NCBI GenBank assembly: GCA_008501735.1
Contig: QQUF01000045.1
Coordinates: 186,001-250,000 of the forward strand
Length of the DNA: 64,000 nucleotides
Direction of reading: 5' to 3'
Source of the DNA: Calditrichota bacterium
GTDB taxonomy: Bacteria; CLD3
The stretch's first letter is position 1; each line of letters begins with the position of its first letter. The notes under the pieces were generated by a model. It did not search any database. It was given only the letters and a program-made list of their open reading frames with translations, and had not been told where the DNA came from. Of the stretch, positions 43,546 to 56,850 are shown piece after piece. A program made the translations under genes and the position numbers.

Positions 43546-45744
43546 ATGAAAGTCTTAACTAAAGCCATATTTATTTTAGTTTTTGTGAATTCGGTTTATG
43601 GAGAAATGCCACAAACAATCCAAGAGTTAGAAGAAGCCAAAACGAAGTCAGAATACTTTGTGAAAGAATACCAAAGTGGTAACATAACTTACTGTTTGTT
43701 AGGTTTAAAATCCAAATCAGAAAGAGATGAATCAACACTTTACAGAACACCAATTGGTGATAGTTTTGAATTGAATTGGACAGTTTTACCTTTCAATGAA
43801 CCTGTTGACGATGTTCTTGTAGAAGGGAATAATTTACTAATCAAAAGTAAAAACAAAGTCTTTCAGAGTGGAAACGGAGGAATGGGTTTTCGAGAATCAA
43901 GTTTAGCATTTTCAGAGTCTTCACTTTCTGTTTTAGAGAATCAACCACTTAATCTTAAGAAAAAAACTACGAACCAAATAAGTTGTTTGCCAACGATTGC
44001 ACCTTCTGTTTGGGATACTTTATTGATGGACACAAGTCAAGTGTTTCTTACAAGCAACATTCCACAAGGAGGTTTGGCATTTATGCACGGCAGAGTTGCA
44101 GTTGGAGATTCAGGCTTTGTTCACGTAGCATCAGTTAGAGAAGACCGACTTTTAAAATATCACAGAAGCACAGATTATGGAGCGACCTTTGAAACAGCAG
44201 TAGTTTTGGAAGATACGATTGGTAAAGTTTATAGTATTCAAGCTACAGGAGATAATGTTTATGTTTATGCAGTTAGTTCAGCTTCTTGGGCTCCAGTTTA
44301 TAAATATTACTTATTTTCAAGTTCGGATAGAGGAGCGACTTGGAATCCACCGATAGAACAACCATTTACAACGAGGGAGAACATAATCTCTCGTTCCGAT
44401 ACAGTTTATCATTTTGTAGAGACAGGAGCAGGTGGAAGTCTTTATGAAGCAGAAAGTTTTGATATGGGAGAAAGTTTTTCACTTTATCAAGAGATAGACA
44501 CACTTTGGGCAGCTATTCAAGACCCTTCAATTGCAACAGCAGGAAACTCTATAATTTATTTTAGAACAGGTAATGGAGGACAGACATCAGGAACTTTTGT
44601 ATATCGTTCATTTGATTTGGGAAATACTTGGTTTCCACCAATGGACTTGAGTTACAATTGCAGTTTTTGGAATTACCAAAATCCTTCTATTCGATTTGAT
44701 GGTTCTACATTCCATACCACACAAGGATTTGGTTACTCGCTTCACACCAAAAGTGTTGACTATGGAAATACCTTTAATCCTTACACAACCCTTTGTATTG
44801 TAGATTCTAATTGTGCAGTAAGTGAACAACAAAAACTTGCTTCATTTGATGGAAATGTTTTTCCACTAATCAATGACAATATCAATTTTGGAATAACTGA
44901 TAGATTAATAACTAGATTTTCAAGAGACAATGGAAATACTTGGTCTAAGATTCTTTATATCTCAGATTATAATAATGGTTGGGTTGGAGTTTCGCCTTGG
45001 TATTCAATAGCAGCAGATGATTCATTGATTTATGTAACTTATAGTCGTTCAAAAGAAACCATTAGTAGTGATTGGGATTTTGAATTGGTATTTAAAAGAG
45101 GTTTTTACAAATACCCACTTTATTCATCAGTTAACACATTGGATTTAGGCTTAGTAGATTCGAGTCTAAAAATAATCACAAATCTTCCAGTAGCGAATAA
45201 AGGTGTTATTCCACTTTACATCAATCAAATTGATTTACCAACTGAAATAACACTTTTAGATGATTCTACAACAACTCCTTTAGCTTTTCCATTAATTATT
45301 CAACCAGACTCAGTATTCAATTTCCAATTTGAGTTTTTATCAGAAGTTGTAGGAAGTTATTCTGATTCAATCAAGATTCATACAAATCAACAAGTAGAAC
45401 CTTTGAGAACGATTTTTGTAAGTGGAGAAATTCTTGCTGTTGGAGTTAGTGAAGAAGAAAATACAATTACCACATTTAAGTTATCACAAAACTATCCAAA
45501 TCCATTTAACCCAACGACTGTAATTAATTACGAATTAGGAATTGCGAATTACGAAAAAGCAACTCTAACAATTTACAACATTCTTGGAAAGAAGGTGAAG
45601 GAGTGGAAACTAAAATCCAATTCTGGTGAAGTAGTTTGGAATGGAACCGACAATTTTGGAAACTCGGTTTCAAGCGGAGTGTATTTTTACAAACTAAAAA
45701 GTGAGAAGCAAAGTGAAACCAAAAAAATGCTTCTGATTAGATAA
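43546..45744 (+). CDS. BNR/Asp-box repeat protein with T9SS sorting domain (sialidase-like propeller)
   Basis: Secreted protein of 732 residues with a signal peptide (AIFILVFVNSVYG). Asp-box motifs mark propeller blades: STDYGATF, SSDRGATWNPP, SFDLGNTWFPP, SVDYGNTF and SRDNGNTWSKI. These are the S-x-D-x-G-x-T-W turns of sialidase-type beta propellers, but the catalytic Arg triad and FRIP motif of real sialidases were not seen, so a non-enzymatic or other glycan-binding role is likely. An Ig-like domain and a T9SS sorting domain follow (LSQNYPNPFNPTTVINYEL, LTIYNILGKKVKEW, SGVYFYKL, ending KKMLLIR). A strong GGAAGGAG ribosome site precedes ATG. Confidence 0.85.
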   Translation: MKVLTKAIFILVFVNSVYGEMPQTIQELEEAKTKSEYFVKEYQSGNITYCLLGLKSKSERDESTLYRTPIGDSFELNWTVLPFNEPVDDVLVEGNNLLIKSKNKVFQSGNGGMGFRESSLAFSESSLSVLENQPLNLKKKTTNQISCLPTIAPSVWDTLLMDTSQVFLTSNIPQGGLAFMHGRVAVGDSGFVHVASVREDRLLKYHRSTDYGATFETAVVLEDTIGKVYSIQATGDNVYVYAVSSASWAPVYKYYLFSSSDRGATWNPPIEQPFTTRENIISRSDTVYHFVETGAGGSLYEAESFDMGESFSLYQEIDTLWAAIQDPSIATAGNSIIYFRTGNGGQTSGTFVYRSFDLGNTWFPPMDLSYNCSFWNYQNPSIRFDGSTFHTTQGFGYSLHTKSVDYGNTFNPYTTLCIVDSNCAVSEQQKLASFDGNVFPLINDNINFGITDRLITRFSRDNGNTWSKILYISDYNNGWVGVSPWYSIAADDSLIYVTYSRSKETISSDWDFELVFKRGFYKYPLYSSVNTLDLGLVDSSLKIITNLPVANKGVIPLYINQIDLPTEITLLDDSTTTPLAFPLIIQPDSVFNFQFEFLSEVVGSYSDSIKIHTNQQVEPLRTIFVSGEILAVGVSEEENTITTFKLSQNYPNPFNPTTVINYELGIANYEKATLTIYNILGKKVKEWKLKSNSGEVVWNGTDNFGNSVSSGVYFYKLKSEKQSETKKMLLIR

Positions 45745-45911
45745 CTCAAAACTGAAGATTCTACCAATTTTGCAATCCAAAAAACTTATTTGCAACTAAG
45801 AACCCTTTTCCAATAATCTTTCCAAACATTTTTAACTTGAAGAATAAATTTTTTAGGTTAAATTTTCCTTTTAGCTTTACTCCTTAACCAATGTTTTCTC
45901 GGAGGAAACAA

Positions 45912-48788
45912 ATGTCAAAACTCATCAACTCACTTCTTGCAATTTCTACGCTTAGTTTAAGTTCGGTTTTTGCAAATGAAAACCCTTCACAAAATCCCGA
46001 CCCAAATCACGTTCAGGGTCAAATTATTGTAAAACTTACTCACCAAATTCAGTTCCAAAAAAACGGTGAATTTCTCGAAACAGGTTATCCGTCAATCGAC
46101 AAAAAACTTAGAATTTTTAAAATAAATTCTGCTCGTAAAATTTTCCCTCACCACAGAGGAAAAGTAAAAGACGGAGTTACTGACCTTTCTAAAATTTACG
46201 AATTTTCATTCGAGAAGGATTTAGACGAAAAATACATCGCTTCACTTTTTGCAAAAGATGCGAACTTTGTTTACGCCGAACCTCGTTTTATTTACCATAC
46301 AGAAGAAACTCCAAACGACCCGAATTTTTTAACTTCTCAACCTTACTTGACAACAAAACTACAAGTTGAACAGGCTTGGGACGTTATTAAATCAGAAGAT
46401 TCTGCTACTCCTGTAATTCTTGGAATTGTTGATTCAGGAGTTGACCTTGACCACCCAGATTTACAAGCAAATCTTTGGACTAACGACGACGAAATCGCTA
46501 ACAATGGAATAGATGACGACAACAACGGATACATTGACGACACAATCGGTTGGGATTTTACAGGAAACAGCTCAAGCAATCCAGGAGGAAATCCTGACAA
46601 CGACCCAAATGACCAATTTGGTCACGGAACTCACGTTTCAGGTGATGCAGCAGCAGTTACGAATAACAACACTGGAATCGCTGGAATCGCTTGGAATCCT
46701 AAAATTATGGCAATCAAAACTGGTGCAAATTCTACCGCAATTTTTCACGGTTACGAAGGAATTGTTTACGCTGTAGAAAACGGAGCTCACATAATTAATT
46801 GTAGTTGGGGCGGAAGTGGAGGAAGTCAATTTGGTTTCGACACAATCGAATTCGCCAAAACAATGAACGTCGCAGTTGTTGCAGCAGCAGGAAACGACTC
46901 AAGCCTTGAACCACACTTTCCTTCTTCTTATCCTTCAGTTCTTTCTGTCGTAGCAACCAACAATGTTTACTCAAAAGCAGGTTACTCTAACTTTGGAATT
47001 GATGCAGACATTTCTTGTCCTGGAACAAGTATTTCAAGTACAACAGTTGGTGGTGGTTACGGTTCTTCAAGTGGAACTTCAATGGCTTCTCCAATTGTTG
47101 CAGGAGCAGCTTGTTTGGTTCGAGCTTTACACCCAAATTGGTCAGCAATGCAAGTTCTTGAACAAGTTAGAGCAAGTGCCGATTCGGCTCTTTACCTTGT
47201 AAATCCTTCAGGAAGCGACTATTTAATGGGAAAAGGAGGATTGAACGCTTTCAGAGCAGTAACTGTTAGAACTCCTTCAATCCGAATTAATGACATCGAA
47301 TTTGACGACACAATAAATGGTGATGGCGACGGAATTCTTGACCCAGGAGAGTCAATTGATTTGAATTTGGAACTTTTTAATTTCTTAGCTGATGCACAAA
47401 ACGTTACTATCGGAATTGTTTCTTCAAGCCCTTACGTTACAGTAACAACTCAGTCAACAGTTGTCGGAAACATTGATTCTTTAAGTTCAGCAATTGCGAA
47501 TCTTTCATTTGATGTTAACGCAAACGCTCCCAAAAATGCCGAAGTTCAGTTTAGAGTTTGGTTTGAAGCAACAACCTCTTTTGGTTACAACTACTACGAT
47601 TTTGAACACTTTGCAGCTTTTACTCGACCAAATTTTGTAACTCATTCTAACGACAGTTTACAACTTTCTGTAACAGACGAAGCGAATTTGGGTCACGTTG
47701 ACAATGCAGGTGAAAATGGCGGAGTTGGTTTCATTTTTGAAAACGGAACAGATTTGATGTTTGAAGGTGCAATGATTATCGCAAGAAGTGCAACACAAGT
47801 CGCAGACGCTGCGAGAACTTCAGGAAGCAATCCACAAAGCACTGACTTTGCAAATTTCGGTTCGGACATTTTCCTAAATGAAAACTCAGTTGTAGCAGAC
47901 CAAGAAAGCGATGTTACATTTTCAACTGTTCCAAATGCACCTCTCACAGGTCTTGACGTAAGACAAAGAGGATTTTCTTTTACTCAAGCTCCTGACAACA
48001 AATTTGTAATTCTTCACTACGAAATTACAAACACAACAAGCCAACCAATTAACGATGTTTACGTTGGTTACTACTTCGATTGGGACGTTGATTCGAATAA
48101 TTTTGGAACGAACCAAGTTGGTTTTGATGCAGCGAATAATTTGGGTTACACTTTTGATAATAATTTCCCTGTTTACGCAGGAATTTCAGTTCTGAATCCT
48201 GAAGGAGTTCACACTCACAGAGCAATCAGCAACCAAGACGACCTTTTTGACACTCAAGGTTTTACCGAAGCTGAAAAATTCCAATTCATTTCAGAAGGTT
48301 TGGTGAACGCAACAAGTACAGTTCAAGAAGACCAATCTGAATCAATTTCGACAGGCTCATTTAACATTTTGCCAAACGAAACAATCATTGCTTCTTTTGC
48401 AATTCTCGGTGGAAACGGCTTGGCAGAAATTCAAGGAAACGCTCTCGCAGCAGCAACAAAGTACCAAACTATTTTGCCTTTGTTGACTTCTATTGATGGA
48501 ACTGAACTGTCGTTACCAAACCAATTTAAACTTTCAAACAACTTCCCAAATCCTTTTAACCCTTCAACTGTAATTAATTACCAATTACCTGTAAGTAGCA
48601 AAGGTAAATTGGCAATTTTTAACATTTTAGGTAAAAAAGTTAAAGAGTTTGATTTGACAGAAAAACAAGGAAACGTTGTTTGGAATGGTATTGATAATTT
48701 TGGAAACCCAGTCTCAAGCGGAACTTATTTTTACCAACTTGAATCTGGAAACAAAATCCAAACTAAGAAAATGACTTTAATAAAATAA
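45912..48788 (+). CDS. Subtilisin-like (S8) serine protease with T9SS sorting domain
   Basis: Secreted protease of 958 residues. GGAGG at 45901-45905 lies six bases before the ATG at 45912, which gives a clean signal peptide (INSLLAISTLSLSSVFA); an ATG seven codons earlier overlaps the ribosome site. After a propeptide, the S8 domain has Asp174 (IVDSGVDLDHPDL), His241 (FGHGTHVSG) and Ser390 (SSGTSMASP). An Asp/Asn-rich stretch, NNGIDDDNNGYIDD, looks like the calcium loop common in this group. A domain beginning RINDIEFDDTINGDGDGILD and a discoidin/MAM-like part follow, then a sorting domain (LSNNFPNPFNPSTVINYQL ... KKMTLIK). All three catalytic residues are in canonical settings. Confidence 0.94.
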   Translation: MSKLINSLLAISTLSLSSVFANENPSQNPDPNHVQGQIIVKLTHQIQFQKNGEFLETGYPSIDKKLRIFKINSARKIFPHHRGKVKDGVTDLSKIYEFSFEKDLDEKYIASLFAKDANFVYAEPRFIYHTEETPNDPNFLTSQPYLTTKLQVEQAWDVIKSEDSATPVILGIVDSGVDLDHPDLQANLWTNDDEIANNGIDDDNNGYIDDTIGWDFTGNSSSNPGGNPDNDPNDQFGHGTHVSGDAAAVTNNNTGIAGIAWNPKIMAIKTGANSTAIFHGYEGIVYAVENGAHIINCSWGGSGGSQFGFDTIEFAKTMNVAVVAAAGNDSSLEPHFPSSYPSVLSVVATNNVYSKAGYSNFGIDADISCPGTSISSTTVGGGYGSSSGTSMASPIVAGAACLVRALHPNWSAMQVLEQVRASADSALYLVNPSGSDYLMGKGGLNAFRAVTVRTPSIRINDIEFDDTINGDGDGILDPGESIDLNLELFNFLADAQNVTIGIVSSSPYVTVTTQSTVVGNIDSLSSAIANLSFDVNANAPKNAEVQFRVWFEATTSFGYNYYDFEHFAAFTRPNFVTHSNDSLQLSVTDEANLGHVDNAGENGGVGFIFENGTDLMFEGAMIIARSATQVADAARTSGSNPQSTDFANFGSDIFLNENSVVADQESDVTFSTVPNAPLTGLDVRQRGFSFTQAPDNKFVILHYEITNTTSQPINDVYVGYYFDWDVDSNNFGTNQVGFDAANNLGYTFDNNFPVYAGISVLNPEGVHTHRAISNQDDLFDTQGFTEAEKFQFISEGLVNATSTVQEDQSESISTGSFNILPNETIIASFAILGGNGLAEIQGNALAAATKYQTILPLLTSIDGTELSLPNQFKLSNNFPNPFNPSTVINYQLPVSSKGKLAIFNILGKKVKEFDLTEKQGNVVWNGIDNFGNPVSSGTYFYQLESGNKIQTKKMTLIK

Positions 48789-48795
48789 TTCTATT

Positions 48796-48825
48796 CAGGA
48801 TTGCCGACTTAAGTCGGCAATCCTG
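48796..48825. repeat. 30-bp perfect palindrome with T tract, terminator of the S8 protease gene
   Basis: Bases 48796-48825 are a perfect palindrome (half CAGGATTGCCGACTT) followed by a five-T run, starting 8 bases after the protease stop. The sequence GGATTGC/GCAATCC is shared with the element at 35158-35212, so the terminator may be derived from a dispersed repeat. Confidence 0.7.
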
Positions 48826-48854: not shown

Positions 48855-50036
48855 ATGCTCCTAATTTTCGTAACGCTAATTTTAATGTTAGCTTTTCTAA
48901 TTTTAGAATACAAAAAACACCTTCTGAACGTCAAATCAATTCCGATAAGAATTCACGTAAATGGAACTCGTGGGAAAAGTTCAGTTACTCGTTTAATTGC
49001 AGCTGGACTTAGAAGTGGCGGAGTTAAAACAGTTGCAAAAACTACAGGAACTCTTCCAAGATTCATTTTGCCCGACGGAAGTGAAGAAAATGTTTACAGA
49101 TTTGGAGCAGTCAATATCAATGAACAAATCCGAATTTTCAGAAAAGCTGCAAGTTTGAAACCAGAAGCAATTGTTATCGAATGTATGGCAGTTCGACCTG
49201 AACTTCAGTGGACTTGCGAACACAAAATCGTAAAAGCCACAATCGGTGTACTTACAAATGCAAGACTTGACCACGTAGATGAAATGGGTCCAACAATGAA
49301 TGACATCGCATTTTCACTTGCAAACACAGTTCCTGTTAAAAGCCTTTTTATAACTTCTGAACACAAATATTTTGACCTTTACAAAGCAATCGCTGAAAAG
49401 AATTCTACCAATATTTTGCCACCTTCTGACCCAGAAACTATTTCTGATGAAGAAATTCAGAAGTTTGATTTTGTCGAACACAAAGAAAATGTTGCCTTAG
49501 CGTTGGACGTTTGTGCCCAAGTAGGAGTGAAACGTGAAGAGGCTTTGGAGGGAATGTATACGATGGAACCTGATTTCGGAGTTTTGAGAATTTTTCCTAT
49601 TCACGAAATGAACAAAGAAATTCGGTTTTTGAATGGATTTGCTGCAAACGATAATGAAAGCACAGCCAAAATTTATGATATGCTAAACCTTCGTGAAAAT
49701 AACGAAGAACCTGTTTTTACTGTCGTAAATTTAAGAGCTGACAGAGTTACTAGAACAGAAGAACTTGCATTTATGATTGCAAGAAAAGTTACCTCCAACT
49801 ACATTGTTGTAATAGGAACAGGTACGGATCTTTTTATGGAAGAAATGGAGGTTTACAGTTTTCCACAGAACAAAATTTTGAAAATGGGTAATTCTTCAGG
49901 TAAAGAAGTTTTAGATAAAATAATTTCGCTGACTCCTCAAAAATCGGTTGCAATTGGAATCGGAAACATTGCAGGAATCGGAATCGAACTACTTGAAGAA
50001 GTAGAAGAAAGAACAACCTTAAAATCTGTGGTTTAA
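48855..50036 (+). CDS. pgsB: CapB/PgsB-type poly-gamma-glutamate synthase ligase subunit
   Basis: ATP-dependent amide ligase related to Mur ligases and folylpolyglutamate synthase (393 residues). An N-terminal membrane helix (LLIFVTLILMLAFLILEY) is followed by the P-loop HVNGTRGKSSVTRLIA (Gly40, Lys41, Ser42). Other PgsB marks are KTTGTLPRFILPDG, IVIECMAVRPELQW and ATIGVLTNARLDHVDEMGPT. In known systems PgsB works with the membrane protein PgsC and with PgsA to make poly-gamma-glutamate capsule. Neither is adjacent: the next genes are trmL, aroK and a glycosyltransferase. The acidic polymer role is inferred from the family; what this lone subunit makes here is open. Confidence 0.9.
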   Translation: MLLIFVTLILMLAFLILEYKKHLLNVKSIPIRIHVNGTRGKSSVTRLIAAGLRSGGVKTVAKTTGTLPRFILPDGSEENVYRFGAVNINEQIRIFRKAASLKPEAIVIECMAVRPELQWTCEHKIVKATIGVLTNARLDHVDEMGPTMNDIAFSLANTVPVKSLFITSEHKYFDLYKAIAEKNSTNILPPSDPETISDEEIQKFDFVEHKENVALALDVCAQVGVKREEALEGMYTMEPDFGVLRIFPIHEMNKEIRFLNGFAANDNESTAKIYDMLNLRENNEEPVFTVVNLRADRVTRTEELAFMIARKVTSNYIVVIGTGTDLFMEEMEVYSFPQNKILKMGNSSGKEVLDKIISLTPQKSVAIGIGNIAGIGIELLEEVEERTTLKSVV

Positions 50037-50039
50037 AAA

Positions 50040-50489
50040 ATGCACGTCGTACTTTATCAACCCGAAATACCACCAAATGTTGGCAACATCGCAAGACTTT
50101 GTGCTGCAACAAATACTACTCTTCACCTTGTCGGTAAACTTGGTTTTATTGTCAACAACAGACATTACCAACGAGCAGGTTTGGATTACTGGGAATTTTT
50201 AAATCTTGAAACTCACAATGATTTAGACGAAGTTTTTGAAAAGTATCCAAAAGGCAAAATTTATTACCTTAGCACAAAAGCTACCAAAAATTATACAGAT
50301 GTAAAATTTGAAGATGACGACCTTTTGGTTTTTGGTCCTGAAACTCGTGGATTGCCTGAAAAGATGATTTTTGAAAATCCTGACACAGCAATCAAAATTC
50401 CAATGTTTGGAAAAGTCCGTTCCCTTAATATTTCAAATTCTGTCTCAATTGTTTTGTATGAAAGTTTAAGACAAATAAAAGGCTTTTAG
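50040..50489 (+). CDS. trmL: tRNA (cytidine(34)-2'-O)-methyltransferase
   Basis: SPOUT-fold SAM methyltransferase that 2'-O-methylates the wobble base of leucine tRNAs (149 residues, typical minimal SPOUT size). The N terminus HVVLYQPEIPPNVGNIARLC is diagnostic. LVFGPETRGLP and RSLNISNSVSIVLYE form the knotted SAM site, and RAGLDYW is a further conserved block. It starts 3 bases after the pgsB stop and is followed 11 bases later by aroK, so it is part of that operon. Confidence 0.95.
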   Translation: MHVVLYQPEIPPNVGNIARLCAATNTTLHLVGKLGFIVNNRHYQRAGLDYWEFLNLETHNDLDEVFEKYPKGKIYYLSTKATKNYTDVKFEDDDLLVFGPETRGLPEKMIFENPDTAIKIPMFGKVRSLNISNSVSIVLYESLRQIKGF

Positions 50490-50500
50490 CCTTTTCCAAA

Positions 50501-51013
50501 ATGCTAAACATTCCAAATAAAATTTTCATTTGTGGTTTTATGGGAGCAGGAAAGACTGTTGTTTCCAAAGGACTTGCAGATAAATTAGACTTCAAATATT
50601 TTGACCTTGACGAAATAATTGAATCTAAAACAAGTTCAACAATTTTATCAATTTTTGAAACTCTTGGTGAAAAAAGCTTTAGGAAAATTGAGTCAGAGAC
50701 CTTAGAAGAATTCATCAAAAAAAATGAAAGATTTATTCTCGCACTTGGCGGAGGAACTTTAAATAAATCGGAAAATTTGAAACTCGTTAAAGAAAATGGA
50801 GAATTGATTTTTTTGGGAAATTCTTTTGAAGAGCTCTGGAAAAGAATTGAAAACTCAAACAGACCTTTAGTTAAAATGGGAAAAGAATTTTCCCTTAACT
50901 TGTTTTTACAAAGACAAAAAAGCTATGAAAATTCTTCAATTAAAATTAATTGTTTTCAAAAATCCATTTTTGAAATTTCAAATGAAATTTTCCATAACCT
51001 AACCACAAAATAA
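50501..51013 (+). CDS. aroK: Shikimate kinase
   Basis: Phosphorylates shikimate at the 3-position in the pathway to chorismate and aromatic amino acids (170 residues, normal). Walker A is GFMGAGKT at 12-19. FDLDEIIES carries the metal/shikimate acid, GEKSFRKIESETL the shikimate-binding Arg, and LALGGGTL the GGG loop. The lid has NSNRPL. It is the third gene of the pgsB-trmL-aroK run; no other aro genes are nearby. Confidence 0.95.
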   Translation: MLNIPNKIFICGFMGAGKTVVSKGLADKLDFKYFDLDEIIESKTSSTILSIFETLGEKSFRKIESETLEEFIKKNERFILALGGGTLNKSENLKLVKENGELIFLGNSFEELWKRIENSNRPLVKMGKEFSLNLFLQRQKSYENSSIKINCFQKSIFEISNEIFHNLTTK

Positions 51014-51078: not shown

Positions 51079-54000
51079 ATGAAACCTGCGATTTTAATTA
51101 GTGGCGAAAAAGAACATTTAAACGTCATTAAACAATTTTCTGTTCAAGAGAATTGCGAAATTATTATTTTCAGGAATTCTTTAGTAGAAGAACTTTCCAA
51201 AGAAAATATTTCTTACATTGATTTTAATGAATTTTTGGATTCTAACGCTCAGTTTGACACAGAAGTTTATTCTAATTCAAACTTTCAGCAATGGGTTAAC
51301 TCCTTAAATTCCTATAACTTGCAAAAACAATTTTCATTTGTTGGCGAAATCTTTTTTCTCCAAATGAAAGAAATATTGGAAAAGAATTTTCAAGATGAGT
51401 TTCCTAATTTAATTTTTATAATCGAAGGTTTCAAAAAGTTACTTGAAAGTTATGACTTAAAAGTCTCAATTTTCCAAAATGACATTTCGCCTATCAATAA
51501 AACTTTAATCCGTATTTCACAAAAATTTGAAATCCCAACTTTCTGTATTTTAGCAAACTTCCCTGTTAATAGAATTCTTTTTGAAAAAGTAATTACTGAC
51601 AAAATCGCTGTTTCAAGCGATTCAGCAAAGGATTGGTTTTTGCAAAATGGTGAAGATGAGAGTAAATTTCTTATAACAGGAAATCCAATTTGGGACAAAT
51701 TTTATAACTTCCCACTTGACAAAGAAATCGCTTGTGATGTATTAGGAATTAATTCTCAAAAACCTGTAGTTGTTTTTGCAACAGCTCGGTTAGGAACTTT
51801 GACTTTGTTTAAAGAAGAGGAAGAAATTTTAAATCGTCTCAAAAAGATATTTTTTGCCGTCAAAGAAGCACGCAAGAAATTAGACTTTGAAGTCATTTTC
51901 AAAATTCCTGAAAACGAAACGGATAAAACTATCGATAAATATTTTGCATTACTCAAAGAATGCGAAATTGGCGATGATGACTTTTTCATTTTCAAAGACG
52001 CAGACCCAATGATGATTCTTGCTTCTGCCGATTTGGTGATAAACACTCGTTCAAATATTTTCGGAATTGAAGCTCTTTTGGTGGGAAAAGTAGTAATTAC
52101 TTTAATGAGAGACGGAGTTTTCAAAGACGGCGATGCAGTAATTTTTGCTGAAAGTCAAGAAGAGTTGACAGACTCAATCATCGAAACTTTGACTGATGAA
52201 ACAATGAGTCAAAGTTTGAATGAAATTAGCTCGGAAACGATAGAAAGAATTAACCAAAACTTTGATGGAAGAGCAACTCAAAGAGTAGTAAATGAAATCA
52301 ATAAAATTGCTGGTTTTCCTTCACAAAAATTTAACCTCACAAGCATAATTATAGTAACAGAAAATAATGAAGACTCAATTCAAGATTGCATTCGAAGTAT
52401 AAGAAAATATACAAGATTAGATTACGAAATTATTGTAATTGACAACAACTCTACAGACAAAACAGTTGAAATTCTAAAATCTGAACGAAACCTAACAATC
52501 ATTGAAAACTCTAAGAATTTTGGAACTGTAAGTGGATTTAATCAAGGAATAAAAGCATCGGAAGGTGATTTTATTGTTTTCTTAAGTCCAAAAGTTAGAG
52601 TTTCTAAAAATTGGCTAACAAATTTAGTTAGCAACTTTGATGTAAAAACTGGAGCTGTTGCACCTTTGGCAAAAGTTGATTTTTCAGAACAAAATCTGAA
52701 CCTTTGGTTTGATGATTCTGACAAAATCTCTGATTTTGAAAATTTGGCTGAAAACGTCAACAAACAAAATTTGGAACAAACAGAAATTGCCAATTTCCTT
52801 TTGGACTTTTGCCTCTTTACTTCACGAGAAATTTTAGAAAAAATAAACTTTTTCGACGAAAGATTTTCCTCACTACCAAATGCGATGGATTTTGCATTAA
52901 AAGTTAGAAATTTGGATTTGACACTTTTAATTGCTAAAGATACTTTAGTTGATTTTGAACTCACAAACGTGGATTTAGAAGAAGAAATCGCAACCGAAGA
53001 ATTTCAAACCCAAAGTGAAATTTTGGTTCACAAACTAAATGCGACATTTGAAATTGATGTAACTGTTGAGCAGTTTTGGGGAATTGATTGGTTCAAAGAA
53101 AAACAGAAAGAGGAAAAAATTAGGCTCGTAAATTTAGACGATTTAGTGAGTGTAATTGTTGAAGTTGACGAAAATTTGGATTTCACAAAAGCCTGTATTC
53201 AGAGTTTACTCGAAAATACTTCTCAAAATTACGAATTAATTTTTATTGACAATTCAAAAAATCTTGAGACTGCAAACTACCTTTTAGAACTTGAAGAATC
53301 TACTTTGATTCGTAATAAGGATAATATCAAAGCACTTAAACAAGCATTTTTGAAAAGTAGTGGCGAGTTTATACTTTTTATGCAAAATGATGTTTTGGTT
53401 TCTAAAAATTGGCTTTCTAATATTTTTAGTGAAATTACTGAAAATACTGGATTAGTAACAGCACTGTCAAACGTAGACTTTTCTTTGAGTTATGAAAATT
53501 TTGAAGATTTTAGGAAATTCCAAAACGAAATTGAAAATTCTGATAATGAAGTTGAAGAAATTGAAAATCTAAGCATTCCAATTTTTGGCACAAAAGCAAG
53601 TTTCTTGGAGAATTTTAACAAAGAAGTTTTTGAAGGAAATTTCATTGAGAATTTCCAAAATGAAGTCAAAGAAAATGGGTTTCAACTACTCTGTTCTCAA
53701 AATTCTTACGTTCATTCTCTCAAATTTCAAAACTTACTTGAGCCTGAAATTGATGAACAAGAAGTTCTAACCAAAAAGGATAAAATTGTAGAAACTGTTG
53801 AAGAAAATGAGATAGCCGAATTTTTCGATGAAAATAACGAAAATGAACTCATTGAAGAGAGTTTAGAAACTGACGAACTCATTGAAGATTTTGAAGAACT
53901 ACCAAAGAAAATTAATGAACCTGATAATATTGGTGAAATTCTTGAAGATGATGAACAAGAAATCATTGACTCTGTTGAAACTTTTGAAGAAGAGACGAAT

Positions 54001-55845
54001 AATGAAGAATCACTAGGGCTTGAACAAGATTCTAAAGACATTAGCAAAATTGAATCAGAAGTTGTTATAGAACCGAAAGGTATTAGCGAAATTGAGGATT
54101 TAATACCAGAAGTTGAAGTTCAAGACGAAACCGAAGAAGGAAATTTTGCTTTAGTTGAATGGGTTGAAGATGAAGAGGAAAATGAAGATGAAGATGAAGA
54201 GGATATTGTAAATTCTAAACCGACTTCAGAAAAAATAGACTCTTGGGAAATTAATGAAGTTGATGAAGAGAAACATAATCTTATCATTTTAGAAGACGAC
54301 AATCTAAAGAATGAAGAAATCCACGATGATGAAACCAAAGCTGTTGAAGTAGAAACTTTTGACGAAATTGAAATTCTTGAAGAAAAAATTAAAAATGAAG
54401 ATTCGACTAAAGAAGAAAATGATGTTAAGGAAATCCACGATGATGAAGCCAAAGTTGTTGAAGTAGAAACTTTTGATGAAATTGAAATTCTTGAAAAAAA
54501 AATTAAAAATGAAGATTCGACTAAAGAAGAAAATGATGTTAAGGAAATCCAAAATGAAGAACAATCAGAAACATTAGAAGAAATTGGTGAAAAAGATTCG
54601 ACTCTGAAAAAGAAGATTATCTCTTTTGACGCTTTCAAACAAGAAGAGAAAGAAGAAGAGAATTTTGACATAACTAATGAAGAAATTCCTGAACTCAAAG
54701 AAGCTATGTTTGACGAGCTAAAAGAATCTCTATCTAAAGACCAAGAAGAACTTAAGTCAGAAGAGATTGCGAAAGAAAAAATCCAACTTATCGAACCAAT
54801 TAACGAAGAGATTCCCGAGACAGAAAATGAATCTGAGCCAATAAACATTGTAAGTGCTTTTGAAGCTCAAGAAGAAAACTCAGAAACTGAAAAAATGGAT
54901 TTAGCAGAAGTTGAAAATGAATTTAGAGTACAAAGACTAAATTTATTTACAAATGCAAATTCCGAAGAAGAAATTGCTGAAATGATGCAATTGTTTACAA
55001 AAATTAAAGACATTTTCCCTAAAACTAAATTCTTCTTTACAAGCAAATTGATTGAAGAAAGTGTTGAGAATTTTCAAGAATTTAATGCAGGTTTAGTAAG
55101 TATTGGAATCCATTTTGTGATGCTTTCTGCGGTAAATGATGCTCTAAAAATTACAGATTTGTTTTTAAATCAAAAGTCTATACAGTTACCTGAAGGATTT
55201 TCTATTCCCGAAATTGAAATCAGTTTGAACGAAAAAGATAATTTTGTAAAAATCAAAATTTTACATTCCCTTTTCCCATCTAAGAAGAATGTTAAGGAAA
55301 GTGAGAAAAATGTTTCTTTAACAGCTTGTTTGCTAACTTATAACTCTGAAGAAACTCTTAAGCTATGCCTTGAAAGCATTAATGAGTTTGCTCAAGAAAT
55401 AATAATTATCGACGTTGGCTCATACGACAATACTTTTGAAATTGCCAAAGATTTTGGTGCTAAAGTCTTACACTTTGAAGTCGAAGAAGAAATTTCAACT
55501 TCTCGAAATAAAGCAATAAGTGAAGCAACAAAAGATTGGATTCTTTTTATAGAGCCTGACCAAATTATTCACCAAAATGATATTGATAAACTCAAAAGTC
55601 TGATGTCAAAATCTACCTTTAATGCTTTTACAGTAATTGAAAAGTCTGAAAATGGTTTTAGCGAAAGTTGTAGAATTTTCAAAAGAGATTCGAGATACTT
55701 TTTCCAATCAAATGACATAAATGGAATTTTGCCTTCTATAAAAGGTTTAAGACATAATATTTTGGATACAACAATCGAATTTGAGAACATTGAGAATAAA
55801 CCTCAGAGTTCACTTTCCAAAATATTAAGTTTCATTAAAAAATAA
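51079..55845 (+). CDS. Giant multi-glycosyltransferase protein with acidic repeat-containing linker
   Basis: A 1588-residue cytoplasmic-looking protein with no signal peptide. Residues 1 to about 410 resemble a GT-B-type or CDP-glycerol-transferase/epimerase-like fold (ILISGEKEHLNVI, FLITGNPIWDKFYNF, ADLVINTRSNIFGIEALLVGK). A GT-A family 2 domain starts near 420 (TSIIIVTENNEDSIQDCI, IVIDNNSTDKT, NFGTVSGFNQGIKASEGDF). A second GT2-like domain starts near 687 (FIDNSKNLETANYLL, GEFILFMQNDVLVSKNWL). A Glu/Asp-rich, low-complexity segment spans about 900-1290 and holds two 38-residue tandem repeats. A third GT2-like domain fills about 1409-1575 (LTACLLTYNSEETLKLC, IIIDVGSYDNTFEIA, STSRNKAISEATKDWI). 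The canonical DxD is replaced (LSPKVRV, MQNDVLV, IEPDQII), so which domains are active is unclear. It follows aroK and precedes a PorV-like gene. It probably makes or extends a surface glycan; this is inference. Confidence 0.8.
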   Translation: MKPAILISGEKEHLNVIKQFSVQENCEIIIFRNSLVEELSKENISYIDFNEFLDSNAQFDTEVYSNSNFQQWVNSLNSYNLQKQFSFVGEIFFLQMKEILEKNFQDEFPNLIFIIEGFKKLLESYDLKVSIFQNDISPINKTLIRISQKFEIPTFCILANFPVNRILFEKVITDKIAVSSDSAKDWFLQNGEDESKFLITGNPIWDKFYNFPLDKEIACDVLGINSQKPVVVFATARLGTLTLFKEEEEILNRLKKIFFAVKEARKKLDFEVIFKIPENETDKTIDKYFALLKECEIGDDDFFIFKDADPMMILASADLVINTRSNIFGIEALLVGKVVITLMRDGVFKDGDAVIFAESQEELTDSIIETLTDETMSQSLNEISSETIERINQNFDGRATQRVVNEINKIAGFPSQKFNLTSIIIVTENNEDSIQDCIRSIRKYTRLDYEIIVIDNNSTDKTVEILKSERNLTIIENSKNFGTVSGFNQGIKASEGDFIVFLSPKVRVSKNWLTNLVSNFDVKTGAVAPLAKVDFSEQNLNLWFDDSDKISDFENLAENVNKQNLEQTEIANFLLDFCLFTSREILEKINFFDERFSSLPNAMDFALKVRNLDLTLLIAKDTLVDFELTNVDLEEEIATEEFQTQSEILVHKLNATFEIDVTVEQFWGIDWFKEKQKEEKIRLVNLDDLVSVIVEVDENLDFTKACIQSLLENTSQNYELIFIDNSKNLETANYLLELEESTLIRNKDNIKALKQAFLKSSGEFILFMQNDVLVSKNWLSNIFSEITENTGLVTALSNVDFSLSYENFEDFRKFQNEIENSDNEVEEIENLSIPIFGTKASFLENFNKEVFEGNFIENFQNEVKENGFQLLCSQNSYVHSLKFQNLLEPEIDEQEVLTKKDKIVETVEENEIAEFFDENNENELIEESLETDELIEDFEELPKKINEPDNIGEILEDDEQEIIDSVETFEEETNNEESLGLEQDSKDISKIESEVVIEPKGISEIEDLIPEVEVQDETEEGNFALVEWVEDEEENEDEDEEDIVNSKPTSEKIDSWEINEVDEEKHNLIILEDDNLKNEEIHDDETKAVEVETFDEIEILEEKIKNEDSTKEENDVKEIHDDEAKVVEVETFDEIEILEKKIKNEDSTKEENDVKEIQNEEQSETLEEIGEKDSTLKKKIISFDAFKQEEKEEENFDITNEEIPELKEAMFDELKESLSKDQEELKSEEIAKEKIQLIEPINEEIPETENESEPINIVSAFEAQEENSETEKMDLAEVENEFRVQRLNLFTNANSEEEIAEMMQLFTKIKDIFPKTKFFFTSKLIEESVENFQEFNAGLVSIGIHFVMLSAVNDALKITDLFLNQKSIQLPEGFSIPEIEISLNEKDNFVKIKILHSLFPSKKNVKESEKNVSLTACLLTYNSEETLKLCLESINEFAQEIIIIDVGSYDNTFEIAKDFGAKVLHFEVEEEISTSRNKAISEATKDWILFIEPDQIIHQNDIDKLKSLMSKSTFNAFTVIEKSENGFSESCRIFKRDSRYFFQSNDINGILPSIKGLRHNILDTTIEFENIENKPQSSLSKILSFIKK
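54316..54543 (+). repeat. 114-bp in-frame tandem repeat, two copies, in the acidic linker
   Basis: Two head-to-tail copies (54316-54429 and 54430-54543) differ at only a few bases and encode 38-residue units containing EIHDDE, VEVETFDEIEILE and KNEDSTKEENDVK. A third unit begins with GAAATCC at 54544 but diverges at once. The 114-bp period keeps the frame, so copy-number change would alter linker length without breaking the protein. Confidence 0.9.
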
Positions 55846-55932: not shown

Positions 55933-56850
55933 ATGAAAAAAATCATTTTACCAATTTTATTTACGATTTTACCAACTTTTGCTTTTTCGCAAGGAACTAC
56001 TGTTTATGAAATTTTAAAGACACCTGGTTCTCCACAAATTTCTGCTTTGGGAGGAGCTTTTTATTCGTATCAAGGAAATATCAGTAACATTTTTGCAAAC
56101 CCTGCTGGTTTAGCACAGTTGCAAAGTTCTGCTCTTATGGCGAATTATTCTAATGAAGTTTTGGATTTTACAGCTGGAAATATTGCATTTGCAAAACCAT
56201 TTAATCACGGCGTTTTTGGAATTTCGATGCGTTACAGAGACTACGGTGAATTTGACAGAAAAGATGAGAAGGGCAACTTAATCGGTGGGAATTTTGACGC
56301 TTATGAATACGTTTTTACAGGAGCTTTGGCTCAAAAATTTTTAGACAATTTTACTTACGGACTTAATTCAAAAATTGTAATTGGAAAAGTTGCAGATGCT
56401 CGGTCTGCTGCTTTAGTTTTTGATTTAGGTGGAACTTACACTTGGCGAAATCAAAATTTGACTTTCGGTGGTGGAATCTTTGATTTCGGAAGCCAAATTA
56501 ACGAATACAGTAAAACTCGCGAAGACTTACCTTCTAACGCTCAAATTGAAATCGGCAAAAAATTAGCTCACTTACCTCTCACAATTTCATACAACAACAG
56601 ATATTATTTTTATGATAAAGAATATGAATTTTCAGTTGGACTTCAATTCGACATTGGAAATTCTTTTGACTTTCGCTTAAGTTATGATTCAACTGGTTCA
56701 GATAAAGATTTGGGCTTTGGCTCAAGCAAATTTGCAGGAATCTCATTTGGTTTTGGAATAACAAAAGCTGGTTTTACTTTCGATTATTCAGGAACTTCTT
56801 GGGGCGAAATTGGATTTCAAAACAGATTTGGAATCTCAAAAACTTTCTAA
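55933..56850 (+). CDS. PorV/PorQ-like T9SS-associated outer membrane protein
   Basis: Outer-membrane barrel of 305 residues from the ATG at 55933 (a longer frame from 55885 lacks a signal). The signal peptide is IILPILFTILPTFAFSQ. The mature protein begins ISALGGAFYSYQGNISNIFANPAGLA, the ALGG ... NPA/GLA pattern of the PorV/PorQ and FadL-related UPF0164 family. Ordered barrel strands follow to the last, FQNRFGISKTF. In T9SS, PorV ferries cargo to the surface and PorQ works in the attachment complex; this protein is a candidate for either role or for a paralogue, and the six sorting-domain proteins in the window are potential clients. Exact subtype not certain. Confidence 0.75.
   Translation: MKKIILPILFTILPTFAFSQGTTVYEILKTPGSPQISALGGAFYSYQGNISNIFANPAGLAQLQSSALMANYSNEVLDFTAGNIAFAKPFNHGVFGISMRYRDYGEFDRKDEKGNLIGGNFDAYEYVFTGALAQKFLDNFTYGLNSKIVIGKVADARSAALVFDLGGTYTWRNQNLTFGGGIFDFGSQINEYSKTREDLPSNAQIEIGKKLAHLPLTISYNNRYYFYDKEYEFSVGLQFDIGNSFDFRLSYDSTGSDKDLGFGSSKFAGISFGFGITKAGFTFDYSGTSWGEIGFQNRFGISKTF

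Follow-up and report, generated by a model that had tools for sequence, protein, structure and literature searches.

The question raised by this locus is what one polypeptide built of four glycosyltransferase-derived modules does beside a porQ-like gene in a bacterium of the Calditrichota. The window, that is, the whole stretch of 64,000 nucleotides that was analysed, carries an open reading frame of 1588 codons with no internal stop. Pfam recognised three Glycos_transf_2 domains in it (PF00535, E 1.8e-57), with scores above gathering, and an Epimerase_2-like GT-B match above the gathering cut-off at the N terminus (6.5e-10). Along the chain the order is GT-B, GT2, GT2, an acidic linker, a segment of about 115 residues and GT2 (Table 1). 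The four modules in one chain proposed in the preliminary description were thereby supported, and its reading frame, acidic linker and third GT2 hold in both coordinates and layout. The linker comprises 385 residues, 38% of them Asp or Glu, and appears from its sequence to have grown by in-frame duplication of the 114-bp repeat. The model of the segment that follows it shows alternating strands and helices at low confidence. The chain lacks transmembrane segments (the highest mean hydropathy over 19 residues is 1.62), so the protein is most likely soluble and cytoplasmic. A membrane polymerase was ruled out on the same ground.

Table 1. Features of the multi-glycosyltransferase gene and its surroundings (positions in the window).
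Feature	Position	Strand	Remark
Protein with T9SS type A sorting tail	43546-45744		TIGR04183
Protein with T9SS type A sorting tail	45891-48788		TIGR04183; also a subtilisin-like protease region
Strong terminator-like hairpin	48796-48825		13 pairs and a T-rich tail; shortly before pgsB; possible operon boundary
pgsB	48855-50036	+	TIGR04012, 429 bits
trmL	50040-50489	+	upstream context
Shikimate-kinase gene	50501-51013	+	ends 65 bp ahead of the glycosyltransferase gene
Multi-glycosyltransferase gene	51079-55845	+	1588 aa
GT-B module, residues 1-414	51079-52320	+	kin: Epimerase_2 / Capsule_synth / nonulosonate-cluster glycosyltransferases
Module 1 (GT2), residues 418-665	52330-53073	+	orthologous to M1 of flagellin-locus proteins
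Inter-module signature WGIDWFK, residues 667-673	53077-53097	+	common to flagellin-locus relatives
Module 2 (GT2), residues 689-885	53143-53733	+	orthologous to M2
Acidic low-complexity linker, residues 901-1285	53779-54933	+	about 25 residues in the ortholog
114-bp tandem repeat within the linker	54316-54551	+	2.1 copies, 96% identical
Segment of about 115 residues, 1286-1400	54934-55278	+	shared with the ortholog; no match in Pfam
Module 3 (SunS/ThuS-like GT2, GT-A fold), residues 1402-1583	55282-55827	+	missing from the ortholog
porQ-like gene (PorV/PorQ family)	55933-56850	+	directly follows the glycosyltransferase gene in the window and in the ortholog

Structure prediction by segment, suggested earlier as a check, succeeded for the C-terminal part and gave no usable model for the N-terminal part. 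Residues 1285-1588 form a confident GT-A core, and the best solved matches of module 3 were ThuS (Z 17.6) and SunS (Z 16.6), with an rmsd of 2.4-2.8 over 152-158 residues. The AlphaFold run on residues 1-925, with a two-row alignment, reached a pLDDT of 36, and the folds of the GT-B module and of modules 1 and 2 are therefore assigned from sequence profiles alone. The GT-B cut-off was passed with Epimerase_2 by the window copy and with Capsule_synth by its ortholog. Viral scans with the GT-B module found nothing, while those with module 3 found GT2 domains that served the fold alignment only.

Contig scans of nine genomes of the phylum found the gene in two, the window genome and one with a full relative, the isolate SJ803 assembly (contig JADZEA010000180.1, loci L009/L025), which belongs to the same family and a different genus. 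The SJ803 protein has 1060 residues and matches window residues 1-885, with 44% identity over 878 aligned residues and 51% in the GT-B module; it keeps segment 1286-1400. The search for the same domain order in related genomes, suggested earlier, thus found GT-B, GT2 and GT2 in an independent assembly, by which an assembly chimera was ruled out for these three modules. Among the two known members of the lineage, the fusion of the long linker and module 3 to the chain was seen in the window genome alone.

A profile of the GT2 tandem was then searched in 386 genomes, and in other phyla it matched polypeptides of 670-1739 residues; further profile searches added the genomes G387, G388, G488, G489 and others. 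Local HMMs found M1 and M2 in a single chain in G361, G094, G488, G489, G387, G388, G198 and G336. These carriers are giant multi-glycosyltransferase polypeptides of 1261-2960 aa (G361, 1738 aa; G488, 2960 aa; G489, 2515 aa; G094, 1261 aa; G387, 1635 aa; G388, 1882 aa; and a G198 protein). Other sequence separates M1 from M2 in G387, G388 and G198. GT-B, M1 and M2 occur together in the 2960-aa protein of G488. Such a fusion is also probable in G198, since its GT-B gene is cut by a contig end that overlaps the start of the M1-M2 contig by about 30 nearly identical bp. Flagellin genes lie close by in all seven loci with enough flank (G361, G094, G198, G387, G388, G488 and G489); the G336 protein, on a short contig, was left out of this count. 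Two of the proteins near flagellin genes are those at L132:9744-18626 (2960 residues) and L133:9341-16888 (2515 residues). In the 2960-residue protein, as in the L104 protein, the C-terminal GT2 copy has a weak score and a degenerate appearance. The gene neighbourhood suggests that these relatives glycosylate flagellin. Stand-alone relatives of the GT-B module adjoin neuA-, neuB- or neuC-like genes at L074, L075 and L078.

The sequence between the two GT2 modules connects the window protein to this group: G361 and G094 share WGIDWF[KR]P, and the corresponding residues are WGIDWFKE in the window and WGVDWLKP in SJ803. In the module tree, window module 1 fell in the M1 clade with a support of 0.92 and module 2 on the M2 side with a weak support of 0.41; the window modules have long branches. 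An ordinary single GT2 family was ruled out by this tree. A separate gene for a SunS-type GT2 with TPR usually adjoins the flagellin-locus proteins and is the counterpart of module 3. The possibility, raised beforehand, that homologues are split into separate genes therefore applies to module 3 and not to the remainder of the chain. The architecture had been described as unrecognised; it can now be placed, and appears to be a variant of a recognisable kind, the giant multi-glycosyltransferase proteins of flagellin loci. By its sequence, the window protein would be a descendant of these proteins and not a functional member, because the catalytic motifs of M1 and M2 are not intact.

The motifs kept by the flagellin-locus relatives are partly gone in the SJ803 ortholog and mostly gone in the window copy. 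In module 1, LNPD(T) and GNDDLD prevail among the relatives, against LSPE and TLELD in the ortholog and LSPK and NAMD in the window (LNPDT has become LSPKV, and GNDDLD has become LPNAMD). Module 2 has NND and GNFEDDD in the relatives, PND and FEKDD in the ortholog, and QND and IENF in the window, where LNNDT has changed to MQNDV and GNFEDDD to GNF-IEN, and NxGF...NQG is disrupted. DAD and HE occur in 12 of 12 domains compared with module 3; the window has EPD and IN and has lost the last His, with D...S.D and R-N kept. The claim that DxD is not obvious in any GT2 copy is thus right for module 1, which lost it outright (SPK), but too strong for modules 2 (QND) and 3 (EPD), which keep its last Asp. 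DxD together with a general-base Asp/Glu, or HE in the SunS type, would mark an active GT2, and the window modules lack this set. The GT-B module of the window keeps TGNPxxD, S325...E331 and DGRATQRV and has neither QHG nor KxHP, the motifs expected of a nonulosonate- or capsule-type transferase; in the ortholog KxHP is kept and QHG is gone.

The losses extend beyond these motifs. The window copy keeps 33 of the 59 family-invariant residues of M1 (41 in the ortholog), 23 of the 56 of M2 (40 in the ortholog), 10 of the 14 of the GT-B module (12 in the ortholog) and 18 of the 34 of M3. Counted from the M2 list, the losses in M2 are not concentrated at catalytic positions. Relative-rate counts gave 37-44 changes in the window copy vs 12-22 in the ortholog for M1, and 32-41 vs 11-16 for M2, i.e., the window copy changed about two to three times as often. 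The porQ control, with fewer sites, showed an approximately 2-fold excess (15-23 vs 8-12), and part of the rate excess is therefore genomic.

The porQ-like gene is the conserved element of the neighbourhood. The PorV-like neighbour noted earlier is real, and its adjacency is conserved in the sole ortholog, while the porQ-like genes of the other seven phylum genomes have different neighbours. The lone CapB is also real (CapB/PgsB) but does not belong to a conserved context, because it was found in none of the eight other phylum genomes; a conserved operon with pgsB was ruled out by the same count. PgsB was possibly acquired. SprA, the marker of the T9SS translocon, is present in nine of the nine phylum genomes. 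A role of the multi-glycosyltransferase protein in the T9SS would be suggested by the porQ adjacency alone. Flagellin (PF00669) had no match in the window genome or in SJ803, both rated 100% complete, and the gene has thus been retained in the absence of the substrate presumed for its ancestor. The sole flagellin match among the nine phylum genomes is L109 (G005:C267:10021-10437).

The explanation that we favour with moderate confidence is that the window gene is an eroded glycosyltransferase of a flagellin island, inherited without its substrate, which has stayed in frame, is probably non-catalytic and, if it still has a function, serves in binding or as a scaffold. Its ancestor would have been a giant multi-glycosyltransferase of a flagellin-glycosylation locus, in which a GT-B transferase and the M1-M2 pair may have glycosylated flagellin in the cytoplasm with a short O-glycan, and a neighbouring gene would have encoded a SunS-type GT2-TPR partner. 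In a flagellin-less lineage bearing the T9SS, the protein would have come to stand beside porQ, and the window species would have added a C-terminal SunS-type GT2 via the linker, a putative flexible charged tether enlarged by in-frame repeat duplication. Glycosyl transfer by the window copy is unlikely because the catalytic motifs are damaged in all four modules, and on its sequence the copy is most likely non-catalytic or nearly so. The frame and the glycosyltransferase folds are kept and the nucleotide-binding residues survive in part, which suggests a role in binding or as a scaffold, i.e., a pseudo-glycosyltransferase. The loss of activity, the binding role and any link to the T9SS are what we infer from these data. 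The earlier proposal of a scaffold with catalytically dead copies comes closer to the evidence than that of a polymerase, but it has to accommodate the last Asp of DxD surviving in modules 2 and 3, which also speaks against complete inactivity in our reading. Moreover, the lineage is known from two members only, the spread of losses could reflect general relaxation just as well as selection for a binding role, and the faster porQ control tempers the rate argument.

A more specific form of this explanation seems to us quite improbable: the flagellin-modifying protein, re-used in a lineage that has no flagellum, would be a non-catalytic scaffold that binds glycans or nucleotide sugars and serves surface anchoring or type IX secretion, and this lineage alone would have added the charged linker and the SunS-type GT2 fusion. 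It is a minor though genuine possibility that the protein still works as a multi-step glycosyltransferase despite its divergent motifs, adding an O-glycan to another surface or secreted protein such as a T9SS cargo. The remaining Asp residues, D...S.D and R-N in module 3 and the conserved porQ adjacency are in agreement with it, and metal-independent GT-A enzymes (GT6) are known (PMC3961637). KxHP and most of the module 2 motif survive in the ortholog, so activity is possible in at least one member. However, the window copy lost the general-base region in modules 1 and 2, HE in module 3 and both GT-B motifs, which most compared relatives keep, and seven of the nine phylum genomes bear the T9SS and manage without the gene. 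The multi-enzyme reading of the preliminary description is weakened.

Plain decay, in which the gene is what is left of a flagellin-glycosylation island that disappeared along with the flagellum, is unlikely in our view. It would account for the loss of about half of the family-invariant residues in modules 1 and 2, for their spread over catalytic and non-catalytic positions, for the higher rate than in the ortholog and for a linker growing by tandem duplication. Nevertheless, about 5.7 stops per 100 amino-acid changes are expected under neutrality, and the 1588 codons contain no stop or frameshift despite the heavy divergence; the GT-B module has also kept half of its residues identical to the ortholog, and the third GT2 and the long linker are unique to the window copy. 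A processive glycan polymerase or a synthase of a T9SS anchor glycan (A-LPS-like), as proposed in the preliminary description, is very improbable. The GT-B relatives are surface-glycan-like, some of them next to the neu-type genes mentioned above, and porQ is the next gene, but the membrane segment is lacking, the immediate neighbours include no Wzx, Wzy or ABC partner, PgsB is not conserved, the M1-M2 relatives are tied to flagellin instead, and the catalytic motifs are damaged. The anchor glycosyltransferases reported in P. gingivalis are WbaP, GtfC, GtfF and VimF (PMC7468200).

The proteins compared here form a natural gradient of erosion: in flagellin loci the enzymes look intact, the SJ803 copy is partly eroded, and the four-module protein, which has persisted without flagellin, is strongly eroded. 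The step from an enzyme to a possible pseudo-enzyme is therefore open to study. The multi-glycosyltransferase proteins with the shared M1-M2 order, found in flagellin loci of several phyla, may also serve as a marker for such glycosylation loci.

Among known systems, the giant flagellin-locus proteins are closest: they share the M1 and M2 modules, in some cases GT-B, and the SunS-type GT2 next door. They differ in their TPR, GT4, CgeB-like and other domains, intact motifs and proximity to flagellin, whereas the window protein has a fused SunS-type GT2, an acidic linker, eroded motifs and no flagellin. The glycocin S-glycosyltransferases SunS and ThuS resemble module 3 in fold at about 23-26% identity; unlike its flagellin-locus relatives, module 3 has no HE motif. 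The Capsule_synth (PF05159), BFO_1060 and Epimerase_2 proteins are the kin of the GT-B module, from which QHG has gone in both copies and KxHP in the window copy. FlmG binds flagellin with one domain and glycosylates it with another (PMC7591256). In P. aeruginosa PAO1, FgtA (PA1091) joins a GT2 and a phosphotransferase in one gene and is needed for b-type flagellin glycosylation (PMC11833859). By this published description, it likewise unites several steps of flagellin-glycan assembly in one polypeptide, with a different second activity and an experimental link to flagellin. GmaR of Listeria, for which there was a weak profile match (22ao, 3e-4), has one GT2 together with TPR and antirepressor domains and lacks the tandem and the acidic linker; its antirepressor function was added to a flagellin GT2 (PMC9638930), and it offers a parallel for a GT2 that modifies flagellin and has a further, non-catalytic role in binding.
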